Below, piece by piece: positions 12,959 to 28,382 of a DNA stretch of 40,928 nucleotides (its first letter is position 1; every line of letters starts with the position of its first letter). This DNA is from Anaerolineales bacterium (GTDB taxonomy: Bacteria > Chloroflexota > Anaerolineae > Anaerolineales > DRKV01), in the NCBI GenBank assembly GCA_024763355.1, contig JANTFR010000003.1, forward strand, positions 1-40,928, in the 5' to 3' direction. A program made the translations under genes and the position numbers. The notes under the pieces were generated by a model. The model did no database searches, was not told where the DNA came from, and worked only from the letters and a program-made list of their open reading frames with translations.

Positions 12959-13058
12959 GCAACGTGGAATTGCGGGGTAAGAGGGGCAGACTTCCGAGAT
13001 TTCTTCGGAGGAACGTTCGGCTGGAGCGGCCCTCGTCAAAATCTCGGAAGTCTTAACC
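12959..13058 (+). repeat. dispersed hairpin repeat, copy 1
   Basis: CAACGTGGAATTGCGGGGTAAGAGGGGCAGACTTCCGAGATTT...AAATCTCGGAAGTCTTAACC; 14-bp stem. Confidence 0.85.
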
Positions 13059-17166: not shown

Positions 17167-17266
17167 GGCAACGCGGAATTGCGGGGTAAGAGGGGCAGGG
17201 AGATTTTCCCGGGGGGATGTTCATCCGGGGCGGCTCTCGTCGAAATCTCCCTTTACCCCATAAATC
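17167..17266 (+). repeat. dispersed hairpin repeat, copy 2
   Basis: GGCAACGCGGAATTGCGGGGTAAGAGGGGCAGGGAGATTT...AAATCTCCCTTTACCCC. Confidence 0.85.
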
Positions 17267-18092: not shown

Positions 18093-18221
18093 AAGTTCGC
18101 AAGTGGGAAGTGTGAAAAGGAGCAGGTTTGCAGATGACCTCGTGTGGGTCAGGGGCGGGAACCGGTCGTAAGATTGTCCTCCGGCATCCCGTCTGACGTA
18201 TTGCGCCAGCCTCCGCTCCAG

Positions 18222-18325
18222 ACTCCCCAACCACCCGACCGGGTGACCAGGCGACTACCCGACCACCTGACCACCTGACCACCCGACTACCCGACTATCC
18301 GACTACTTGACCAGGCGACTACCTC
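18222..18325. repeat. degenerate short tandem (G)ACTACCCGACCACCT tract upstream of tal-pgi
   Basis: ccaaccacccgaccgggtgaccaggcgactacccgaccacctgaccacctgaccacccgactacccgactatccgac. Confidence 0.8.
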
Positions 18326-21181
18326 ATGAACCCTATTGCCACCCTTACCTCCCTCGGACAATCCATCTGGTACGACAACATCCAGCGCCGCCTGCTGGAA
18401 AACGGCGAATTGGCTGCCATGATACAGCGCGGCGACATCCGCGGCCTGACCTCCAACCCCAGCATCTTCCACAAAGCGATTGCCAACTCCCGCGATTACG
18501 ACCCTGCCCTCGTCCCCATGGCCTGGGCCGGATACGACGCCGCCCGCATCTTCGAGCGCCTGGCCGTGGAAGACATCCGTGCCGCCGCCGACCTCCTGCG
18601 TCCCCTTTACGACGAAACGGAGGGGGCCGACGGCTACGTCAGTTTGGAAGTCAGCCCCGACCTGGCCTACGATACCGCCGGGACGCTGGCCGACGCCCGC
18701 CGTTTGTGGCAACTGGTGGACCGTCCCAACCTGATGATAAAAATCCCTGCCACCGAAGCCGGCCTGCCCGCCATCCGCGACGCCATTGCGGAGGGCATCA
18801 ACGTCAACGTCACCCTCATCTTCTCCGTCGAACGCTACGAAGCCGTCATAGACGCCTACCTCACCGGCCTCGAATCCCTCCTTAAAATCACCCCTCCCCT
18901 CTCGGGGGAGGGGCCGGGGGTGGGGGCATCCCCCTCTCCCTTTGGGGGAGGGGCCAGGGGTGAGGGCAAAACCATCCAATCCATCGCCTCCGTAGCCTCC
19001 TTCTTCGTCTCCCGCCTGGATACCAAAGCCGACGCCCGTTTGGAAGAAATCATCGCTGCGGGCGGCCCTCAGGCCGAAATTGCCCGCGCTCTTCTCGGAA
19101 AAATCGCCATAGCCAACGCCAAAGAAGCCTACGCCCGCTTCAAGCGCGTCTTCAGCAGTGAGCGCTTCCGCCGCTTGGAGGCGCTTGGGGCGCGTCCCCA
19201 GCGGCCTTTGTGGGCTTCCACCAGCACCAAGAACCCTGCCTACCCCGACACCATCTACGTGGATTCTCTCATCGGCCCGCACACCGTCAACACCGTTCCG
19301 CCCAAGACCCTGGCGGCCTTCAAAGACCACGGCAAGGCCGCTCCCACCCTGGAGGCCGACCTTGACGAAGCCCGCCGTCACCTGGCCGCTCTCGACTCCC
19401 TGGGCATCTCCCTGGCAGAACTCACCCGCGAACTGGAAGAAGAAGGCGTCGCCGCCTTTGCCAAAGCCTTCCGGGAGATGATGAAAACGATTGAAGAACG
19501 GCGGCAAGCCGCCCGGAACCAACTCGGCCCCCTGGCTGCTTCCGTTGCCCGCAGAGTGGCGGCCCTTGAAGAGATTGCCCTCCCCTCCCGCCTTTGGAAG
19601 CACGACCCCTCCCTGTGGACGGATGAGCGCCAGGGCGCCGCCGAAATCCGCATCCGCCTCGGCTGGCTGGATGCCCCCCAAAAGAGCCGTCCCCTTTTAG
19701 AATCTCTCGCCGCCCTGCGCCAATCCATCCGGAAAGACGGCATCCGCCGCATCCTTCTCCTCGGCATGGGCGGCTCCTCCCTGGCCCCTGAAGTGATTGC
19801 CTCTATCCTTCTCCCCTCCCCCCTCGGGGGAGGGGCCGGGGGTGGGGGTCTCTCCTTCGCCATCCTCGATTCCACCCACCCCGACCAGGTGCGCGCCGCC
19901 GCTCGCGCTTTCCCGCCGAACGAGAGCCTCTACATCGTTGCCAGCAAATCGGGAACTACCGCCGAGCCGCTGGCTTTCCTCGACTACTTCTGGGAACTGA
20001 CCGGCGGGGATGGCAGCCGTTTCGTGGCCATCACCGACCCCGGTTCGCACCTGGAGGCCCTCGGGCGGGAGCGGGGATTCCGCGCCGTCATCCTGGCCGA
20101 CTCCAATGTGGGCGGGCGCTACTCCGCCCTGACCGCCTTCGGCCTGACCCCGGCTGCCCTGATGGGGGCCGACCCCGCCGCTCTGCTGGACCGCGCTGCC
20201 CGGATGCGGGCGCAATGCCTCCCCGAAGTCCCTGCCGGACGCAATCCCGGCCTGGTGCTGGGGGCCGTGCTGGGGCAGGCCGCCCTGCGCGGCCGTGACA
20301 AATTGACCGTCTTTGCGGACGACTCCCTGCGCGCCTTTGGCGCCTGGCTGGAACAACTCATCGCCGAAAGCAGCGGCAAGCGCGGCCTCGGCATCGTGCC
20401 GGTGGATGGTGAACCCCCCGCCGACCCCGCCCTCTACGGCGAAGACCGCCTCTTCGTCTATCTGCGCCGCGACGGCTCGCACGACGTTGCCCTGGATGCC
20501 CTGCGCGCCGCTGGACACCCTACTCTCGTGCTGGATTTCCCGGATGCCTATCACCTGGGCGCCGAGTTCTACCGCTGGGAGGTCGCCACCGCCGTGGCCT
20601 GCGCCATCCTGGGCGTGAATGCCTTTGACCAGCCCGATGTGCAGGACGCCAAAACGCGCGCCAAAAATGCCATCGCCGCTTACCGGCAGCGGGGCGCGTT
20701 CGACGAGGGCGCGCCCGTCTGGGAAAACGAATCCGCTGCCGTGTACGGCGAAATCCCTGCCAGGGCGGGTTCCCTGGGTGAAATCGTGGATGCCTTCCTG
20801 GCGCAGGGGAAGGCGGGCGACTACGTGGCGCTGAACGCCTTCCTGCCGCGCACCCCGGAGTGGCAGGCGCGCCTCACCGAAGTGCGCATAGCCATTTGGG
20901 AGCGCACTCGCCTTGCCACCACCCTGGGCTTCGGGCCGCGCTTCCTGCACTCCACCGGGCAACTGCACAAAGGCGGTGCGAACAACGGCCTTTTCCTGGT
21001 CTTCACCGATGACCCGCAGGAGGACGTCGAAATCCCCGGTCAGGGATTGACCTTTGGAGCCTTACTGCGCGGCCAGGCTTTGGGCGATATCGAAGCCCTC
21101 CGCTCCCGCGTCCGCCGCGTCCTGCGTATCCACCTCCGCATCCCCGATGCCTTGCGAGAGATAGCGGCAGACGATGGATGA
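18326..21181 (+). CDS. bifunctional transaldolase / glucose-6-phosphate isomerase
   Basis: N-term LGQSIWYDNIQRRLLENGELAAMI...GLTSNPSIFHKAI, LMIKIPATEAGLPAI (transaldolase Lys); C-term LLLGMGGSSLAPEV, VASKSGTTAEP, FVAITDPGS (PGI SIS domain). Confidence 0.95.
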   Translation: MNPIATLTSLGQSIWYDNIQRRLLENGELAAMIQRGDIRGLTSNPSIFHKAIANSRDYDPALVPMAWAGYDAARIFERLAVEDIRAAADLLRPLYDETEGADGYVSLEVSPDLAYDTAGTLADARRLWQLVDRPNLMIKIPATEAGLPAIRDAIAEGINVNVTLIFSVERYEAVIDAYLTGLESLLKITPPLSGEGPGVGASPSPFGGGARGEGKTIQSIASVASFFVSRLDTKADARLEEIIAAGGPQAEIARALLGKIAIANAKEAYARFKRVFSSERFRRLEALGARPQRPLWASTSTKNPAYPDTIYVDSLIGPHTVNTVPPKTLAAFKDHGKAAPTLEADLDEARRHLAALDSLGISLAELTRELEEEGVAAFAKAFREMMKTIEERRQAARNQLGPLAASVARRVAALEEIALPSRLWKHDPSLWTDERQGAAEIRIRLGWLDAPQKSRPLLESLAALRQSIRKDGIRRILLLGMGGSSLAPEVIASILLPSPLGGGAGGGGLSFAILDSTHPDQVRAAARAFPPNESLYIVASKSGTTAEPLAFLDYFWELTGGDGSRFVAITDPGSHLEALGRERGFRAVILADSNVGGRYSALTAFGLTPAALMGADPAALLDRAARMRAQCLPEVPAGRNPGLVLGAVLGQAALRGRDKLTVFADDSLRAFGAWLEQLIAESSGKRGLGIVPVDGEPPADPALYGEDRLFVYLRRDGSHDVALDALRAAGHPTLVLDFPDAYHLGAEFYRWEVATAVACAILGVNAFDQPDVQDAKTRAKNAIAAYRQRGAFDEGAPVWENESAAVYGEIPARAGSLGEIVDAFLAQGKAGDYVALNAFLPRTPEWQARLTEVRIAIWERTRLATTLGFGPRFLHSTGQLHKGGANNGLFLVFTDDPQEDVEIPGQGLTFGALLRGQALGDIEALRSRVRRVLRIHLRIPDALREIAADDG
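18889..18968. repeat. palindromic G/C-rich element inserted in frame in the transaldolase part
   Basis: CCCCTCCCCTCTCGGGGGAGGGGCCGGGGGTGGGGGCATCCCCCTCTCCCTTTGGGGGAGGGGCCAGGGGTGAGGG; two tandem hairpin units. Confidence 0.85.
19809..19850. repeat. second palindromic element inserted in frame in the PGI part
   Basis: CTTCTCCCCTCCCCCCTCGGGGGAGGGGCCGGGGGTGGGGG, same family as 18889-18968. Confidence 0.85.
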
Positions 21182-21299
21182 TAGACCGTGGACAGTGGGT
21201 CGTAGACCGTGCGGCGTGCGGATAGCAGACCACAGACGACAGACCACGGACGACAGACCGCAGACCGCAGACCGCAGACTACCCGACTAACTAACCGAC

Positions 21300-21407
21300 C
21301 AGACCAATTTGACCAATCAGACCAATTTGACCAACCAGACCAATTTGACCAATCAGACCAATTTGACCAACCAGACTAATTTGACCAATCAGACTAATCA
21401 GACCAAC
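21300..21407. repeat. 6 x 18-bp tandem repeat CAGACCAATTTGACCAA(T/C)
   Basis: five near-identical units alternating AAT/AAC at the end plus one degenerate unit, immediately upstream of proC. Confidence 0.95.
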
Positions 21408-21414
21408 GCAACCA

Positions 21415-22281
21415 ATGAACCGACCAACCAATGAATCAAAAATTGCCTTCATCGGCCCCGGCGTGATGGCCGAGGCGATGATAAAGGGCCTTCTGGCGCA
21501 GCAAGTCTTCCCCCCCGAAGCCATACTTGCCGCCGGGCCGCGGCGCGAGCGCCTGGAGAAATTGCAGCAGCGCTACCAGATTGCCGGATACACGGATAAC
21601 GCCCTGGCGGCCCGCCTCGCCGATGCGGTTATCCTGTCCATCAAACCGCAGCGCCTGGACGAGGTGCTGCACGACCTGCGCGGTGTGCTGCGCCCCTCGG
21701 CGCTGGTGCTTTCCATCGTGGCCGGGGCGCGCATCGAGAAAATTGCCTCCGGGCTGGGACACGACATCATCGTGCGCGCCATGCCCAATACGCCGGCCCA
21801 AATCGGCGAGGGCATCACCGTATGGACGGATTCCCCCGCGGTGGACGAATCGCAACGCGAAGCGGCGGCCCGCATCCTGGGGGCCTTTGGCGAGCAGATT
21901 TACATGGAAGACGAGGACTACCTCGATATGGCGACGGCGCTCTCCGGCACCGGGCCGGCCTACGTCTTCCTGTTCATGGAGGCTCTCGTGGATGCCGGGG
22001 TGCACATGGGTTTTCCCCGCCGGGTGGCCGAAAAACTGGTTGCCCAAACCCTGCGCGGCTCGGTAGATTACTACCTCCGGCACATGGATAACGGCAGCAC
22101 CTTGCACCTGGCGCACCTGCGTAACCAGGTTACCTCACCGGCGGGCACTTCGGCGGCTGCGCTCTACTACCTGGAGAAAGCCGGTTTCCGCACCGCCCTC
22201 TCGCGGGCCGTGTGGGCGGCCTACGAACGCTCGCGGGATTTGGGCCGCGGCCGCAAAACCCACGACCCGGAAGCATCATAG
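21415..22281 (+). CDS. proC: pyrroline-5-carboxylate reductase
   Basis: KIAFIGPGVMAEAMIKGL, VRAMPNTPAQIGEGITVW, ALSGTGPAYVFLFMEALVDAGV, QVTSPAGTSAAALYYLE. Confidence 0.95.
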   Translation: MNRPTNESKIAFIGPGVMAEAMIKGLLAQQVFPPEAILAAGPRRERLEKLQQRYQIAGYTDNALAARLADAVILSIKPQRLDEVLHDLRGVLRPSALVLSIVAGARIEKIASGLGHDIIVRAMPNTPAQIGEGITVWTDSPAVDESQREAAARILGAFGEQIYMEDEDYLDMATALSGTGPAYVFLFMEALVDAGVHMGFPRRVAEKLVAQTLRGSVDYYLRHMDNGSTLHLAHLRNQVTSPAGTSAAALYYLEKAGFRTALSRAVWAAYERSRDLGRGRKTHDPEAS

Positions 22282-28269: not shown

Positions 28270-28382
28270 GTTAACACGGAATTGTGGGGTAGGATGAGCA
28301 GACTTCCGAGATTTTCCCGGCCTGATGTTCATCCAGAGCGGCTCTCGTCGAAATCTCGGAAGTCTTTACCCCACAAATCTGA
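28270..28382 (+). repeat. dispersed hairpin repeat, copy 3
   Basis: TTAACACGGAATTGTGGGGTAGGATGAGCAGACTTCCGAGATTT...AAATCTCGGAAGTCTTTACCCCACA; 14-bp inner and 9-bp outer stem. Confidence 0.88.

Follow-up and report, generated by a model that had tools for sequence, protein, structure and literature searches.

In-frame palindromic elements in tal-pgi and other genes of an Anaerolineales genome and their association with genes for the DUF559 nuclease domain

Introduction

A stretch of 40,928 nucleotides from an Anaerolineales genome (contig JANTFR010000003.1, positions 1 to 40,928; hereafter the window) carries a gene for a fusion of transaldolase and glucose-6-phosphate isomerase (tal-pgi), whose transaldolase half contains a G/C-rich palindromic insert that leaves the reading frame intact. 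This locus raises the questions of what kind of element the insert represents, how such an element can persist in a coding sequence, and which enzyme might spread it.

Results

Anatomy of the inserts in tal-pgi

The first-pass annotation had described the insert as two tandem hairpins translated as part of the protein. Tandem Repeats Finder reported a direct tandem at 18891-18968, with a period of 40 and 2.0 copies, and both the sequence and the encoded peptide matched that description, which confirmed the presence of an in-frame palindromic element in the transaldolase gene. Each copy is a G/C-rich hairpin with a one-sided, G-rich tail (Table 1). A third copy, with the full sequence IASILLPSPLGGGAGGGGLSFAILD, was found in the same open reading frame and had been missing from the annotation.

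Table 1. Coordinates of tal-pgi and of the palindromic element copies within it (window positions).
Feature	Position	Strand	Composition or evidence
tal-pgi fusion gene (transaldolase + glucose-6-phosphate isomerase, 951 aa)	18326..21181	+	ORF; Pfam TAL_FSA 6e-83, PGI 3e-13; carries three element copies
Left outer end of tal insert	18888..18895	+	TCACCCCT; inverted partner of AGGGGTGA at 18958-18965
Element copy 1	18891..18926	+	Stem CCCCTC-TC-GGGGGAGGGG + tail CCGGGGGTGGGGG; translated PPLSGEGPGVG
Element copy 2, direct tandem of copy 1	18930..18966	+	CCCCCTCTCCC-TTT-GGGGGAGGGG + tail CCAGGGGTGAGGG; translated SPSPFGGGARGEG
Right outer end of tal insert	18958..18965	+	AGGGGTGA; inverted partner of TCACCCCT
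Element copy 3, isomerase half of tal-pgi	19808..19848	+	CCCCTCCCCC-CTC-GGGGGAGGGG + CCGGGGGTGGGGG; translated LPSPLGGGAGGGG

The two outer ends of the tal insert paired in a fold of single-stranded DNA, which was not significant relative to shuffled sequences. Folding energy was rejected as evidence for the element, as it showed no gain over dinucleotide shuffles and is uninformative because the stretch is so G/C-rich. A search of the window against Rfam returned only tRNAs. Tandem repeats with units of 7-9 bp (CGACTACC; CAGACCAAT) form arrays on either side of tal-pgi, at 18221-18323 and 21226-21416, and similar short tandem repeats occupy loops of valS and metH, in frame, in related genomes.

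Comparison with orthologues

In an alignment of 28 Tal-Pgi orthologues, the tal insert, with a net excess of approximately 25 residues, was present only in the proteins of the window genome and of L067 (the same record as G001, MAG HyVt-449, congeneric with the window genome), and absent from the other 26. A tal match was obtained in 142 genomes of the order, and only in G000 and G001 was it split exactly at the insert into two long pieces. The in-frame palindromic element proposed by the annotation would have been refuted by orthologues sharing a conserved loop of equal length encoded by non-repetitive DNA; these were looked for in both comparisons and not found. At the pgi site, four orthologues from other lineages (L072, L077, L086, and L096) had similar Pro/Gly/Glu-rich peptides in the same alignment.

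The sister species G001 shared several insert sites, yet with another frame or orientation: the copy at the pgi site was read in a frame different from that of copy 3, and the element at the second pulA site had the opposite orientation. Element copies are thus replaced more rapidly than the gene around them changes.

In the AlphaFold model of Tal-Pgi (mean pLDDT 88.4), residues 193-214 and 498-507 showed pLDDT values below 50, a prediction of disorder for both inserts, and each stretch was positioned between a helix and the following strand. In alpha/beta barrels, helix-to-strand loops point away from the active site; on this basis, and within the limits of the model, the inserts are probably harmless.

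Dispersal and in-frame copies

The element, of about 37-40 bp, consists of a stem CCCC(T/C)CTCCC-NNN-GGGAG(A/G)GGGG with a one-sided tail CCGGGGGTGAGGG. Genome-wide counts bore out its dispersal: the tail motif gave 40 matches in the 2.76 Mb genome (285 contigs) versus one with a reversed control, a degenerate tail motif 63 versus seven, and the stem motif 22 palindromic sites versus none, amounting to about 50 dispersed copies. Many copies in G000 were close to contig ends, at distances of no more than a few hundred bases (C10, C21, C22, C37, C49, C89, C111, C117, and C170), a position to be expected of a repeat that interrupts assembly, so that the true copy number is probably higher than counted.

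Codon scoring and translation identified in-frame copies in pulA (two sites), ligA, valS, ade, metH, alaS, rlmN, tlyA, and tal-pgi, as well as in one molybdenum-cofactor gene and two genes for YYY-type membrane proteins, giving approximately 14 sites in 12 genes. Coding or intergenic status rested on a simple codon score applied to individual contigs, without full annotation. Matches of LigA, ValS, Ade, MetH, AlaS, and TlyA to NCBIfam equivalogs broke at or beside the inserts. Four of the six reading frames were used by in-frame copies, the antisense frame LTPxPSPxGRGE being the commonest; no paper was found on the translated motif LTPGPSPKGRG or its variants. The element consensus is free of stop codons in five of the six frames, and in all six with a GTGGGG tail variant. 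With so few stops, insertions of 3n bases in flexible surface loops would be able to survive, and copies would persist within important genes as disordered Pro/Gly/Ser-rich loops. This tolerance is inferred, most directly from the structural model, while dispersal, frames, and insertion sites were observed.

Relation to known palindromic repeats

As a palindrome of 20-40 bp with many dispersed copies, occurring as monomers and as tandems or dimers, the element meets the criteria for REP-like sequences. In-frame palindromes in genes are in themselves a known phenomenon, exemplified by intragenic REPs and Rickettsia RPEs, the latter classed among the CGTC REPs (PMC3733652). In-frame REPs in open reading frames, including excinuclease/UvrA and tRNA synthetase genes, have been described for the GTAG and CGTC families and are likely to lie in loops. 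The likeness to Rickettsia elements noted in the annotation held for behavior only: in both cases dispersed palindromes lie in frame within genes for conserved proteins. Membership of the RPE/CGTC family was not demonstrated; the element differs in sequence, its unit is shorter, no CGTC tag is present at the element end in the consensus, and neither the consensus CTCCCCTCTCCC-NNN-GGGAGAGGGGCCGGGGGTGAGGG nor its reverse complement has a terminal GTAG.

DUF559 genes flanked by palindromes

The metH insert of the window genome contains a DUF559 (PF04480) domain, and PF04480 was therefore searched across the genomes of the order, thereby addressing an association that the first-pass annotation could not have seen. 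The domain was found in 75 of 151 genomes, often within very long open frames. Close to the domain (up to 200 bp upstream and 100 bp downstream), perfect GC-rich stems with 8 or more base pairs reached a density of 4.2-6.3 per kb, versus about 0.2 per kb farther away and 0.05 per kb inside the domain. In 12 of the 18 pairs with tails readable on both sides, the outermost tails pointed outward. Stem type followed the DUF559 tree, with 17 changes versus 33.8 after shuffling and none of 200 shuffles as low. DUF559 was present in 37 of 45 genomes with at least five CTCTCCC-type stems and in 38 of 106 genomes with fewer (Fisher p = 1.4e-7, not corrected for phylogeny). Six genomes with at least ten stems showed no DUF559; these are drafts, in which the gene may have been lost or missed. 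One DUF559 clade was mostly without stems by the criterion used, and the only DUF559 copy found in the window genome, that inside metH, had palindromes on its left side only.

Plasmid loci were sampled from Pseudomonadota, Deinococcota, Cyanobacteriota, and Bacillota. A stem was present within 300 bp of DUF559 in 15 of the 21 loci (2.46 versus 0.21 per kb), with stem sequences that differed between lineages. Flanking stems recurred in three other phyla (Pseudomonadota, Deinococcota, and Cyanobacteriota); among the 21 loci, no stem lay within 300 bp at the only one from Bacillota or at the one from E. coli. The flanking of DUF559 genes by palindromes and the co-variation of stem type and copy number with DUF559 are new observations. 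No paper linking DUF559 with palindromes was found, most subscription journals lay outside the search, and priority is uncertain.

Discussion

DUF559 as candidate mobilizer

DUF559 matched, by profile and by fold, a Neisseria DUF559 of solved structure (3HRL) and I-Bth0305I, a homing endonuclease (3R3P; E 3e-5 by profile, 7e-5 by fold), and residues D55, E66, D68, and H72 were invariant in 39 rows. These matches identify a Vsr-like PD-(D/E)XK nuclease fold. The reading preferred here, although held with reserve, is that the REP-like palindromes are mobilized by DUF559 and tolerated in permissive loops; mobilization is inferred, as neither transposition nor cleavage was observed. Under this proposal the window element would be a non-autonomous form, the autonomous form being a palindrome-DUF559-palindrome unit whose mostly outward-pointing tails would act as inverted ends. 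Binding and cutting are likewise inferred: DUF559 would recognize its cognate hairpin or the ends and nick or cut there or at a target, and the break would then be filled by host repair with a copy of the whole unit or of a palindrome alone.

This arrangement resembles that of REPs and REPINs with their RAYT (TnpA-REP) enzymes, in which palindromes of 20-40 bp occur as singlets, tandems, and inverted pairs and, in REPtrons, an enzyme gene is bounded by its own palindromes while non-autonomous copies are scattered. It differs in the absence of a GTAG tag and in the enzyme, a Vsr-like nuclease instead of an HUH tyrosine transposase. A RAYT was rejected as mobilizer, since the genome had only two weak Y1_Tnp (PF01797) matches and the element was absent from both loci.

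A rival explanation, judged unlikely but not dismissed, is that a tyrosine transposase, recombination, or replication slippage spreads the palindromes, with DUF559 being a repair nuclease of the Vsr type and its small open reading frame having become trapped between copies. The two Y1_Tnp matches would fit such a scenario, as would Caulobacter VsrA, a stand-alone member of the same PF04480 family, interpreted as a possible mismatch-repair nuclease without mention of palindromes (PMC12907096). However, the element lies near neither Y1_Tnp locus, and passive capture does not predict flanking on two sides in unrelated lineages, by stems that differ between them and track the DUF559 tree.

DUF559 units within host proteins

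Besides MetH, ValS, and UvrA, the proteins in which DUF559 was observed in frame with adjoining palindromes include several DNA methylases, and there were a few further contexts. The segments EADIDE(I/V)INR and HE(I/T/V)AVHxLNxVLLPAMK enclose the unit in metH, and this site was occupied in three genomes and empty in three within genus g12, and occupied in two and empty in two within genus g28. The empty sites were too diverged at the DNA level for a target-site duplication to be defined. In valS, four g8 genomes hold DUF559 where the window genome has bare palindromes. UvrA of L264, L266, and L267 (family f12) has a mid-protein DUF559 domain with flanking repeat-coded linkers. Fusions of DUF559 with methylases could be ordinary restriction-modification fusions, so the case rests on MetH, ValS, and UvrA. 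In these three proteins Pfam gave only DUF559 between the host domains, without a Hint or intron module around the nuclease. From the position of the full unit, in frame in all three genes, host protein and nuclease are predicted to be translated into a single, unspliced polypeptide; such expression remains an inference.

The same observations could also be read as homing, with DUF559 acting as a site-specific endonuclease on metH, valS, uvrA, and other genes and the palindromes being its ends or scars; this reading is considered improbable. DUF559 shares with Vsr/EDxHD homing endonucleases such as I-Bth0305I the fold, conserved acidic and histidine residues, and presence or absence at fixed sites, as in the two genera above. 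The MetH DUF559s of three families are, moreover, compatible with a single clade (p-AU 0.517); as one clade was not rejected, independent entry into metH is not claimed. Against homing, one nuclease clade spans MetH, ValS, methylase, APH, PIG-L, and OMP decarboxylase contexts, bare palindromes occur at some 50 dispersed sites, and unrelated repeats occupy the same loops. The DUF559 unit also differs from these endonucleases in being bounded by palindromes and read as part of the host protein, with no surrounding intron or intein.

Linkers of valS and metH hold differing lineage-specific repeats, always in frame (L367, L368, L371, L375-L377, L379, L381, L383, and L385). Strict site-specific targeting of valS and metH is weakened by such unrelated tandem repeats in the same loops of other species: these loops are permissive, and repeated occupation alone is therefore no proof of targeting and may reflect tolerance instead. 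The same linkers are the one argument for local slippage creating low-complexity sequence in tolerant loops without any mobile element, an explanation that can hardly be maintained, as the inserts in tal, pgi, and other genes are a defined, tailed palindrome dispersed over the genome and across genomes, with opposite orientations at orthologous sites and identity to distant copies already seen.

Implications and further repeats

Mobilization by DUF559 would offer a candidate for the unknown machinery that spreads such palindromes: a concrete, testable enzyme whose fold is known, whose genes have matching palindromes on their borders, and which varies together with stem type and occurs together with high copy number. 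PF04480, whose function is still given as unknown, would gain a biological role, and the Pro/Gly-rich insertions that repeats encode in MetH, ValS, UvrA, LigA, Tal-Pgi, and other core enzymes would be accounted for. A wider generalization is put forward only tentatively, as it may well not hold: that DUF559 is the dedicated mobilizer of a large, RAYT-less class of palindromic repeats in several phyla, possibly also of "orphan" CGTC REPs including Rickettsia RPEs, and that the full unit represents a new kind of mobile nuclease element, one that sits in frame and does not splice.

Two further repeats were noticed. In L066, a few hundred bases separate a palindrome with a 16-bp stem (AAGACCTCCGAGGTCTTGGAGACCTCGGAGGTCTT, 2108-2142) from a weak Y1_Tnp match, and the two possibly form a REP-RAYT pair of their own. 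In the window, a second dispersed repeat of about 98 bp is present in three copies (12961-13058, 17167-17265, and 28273-28370), two of which have the inverted ends AGACTTCCGAGATTT...AAATCTCGGAAGTCTT; it is a separate, MITE-like family.
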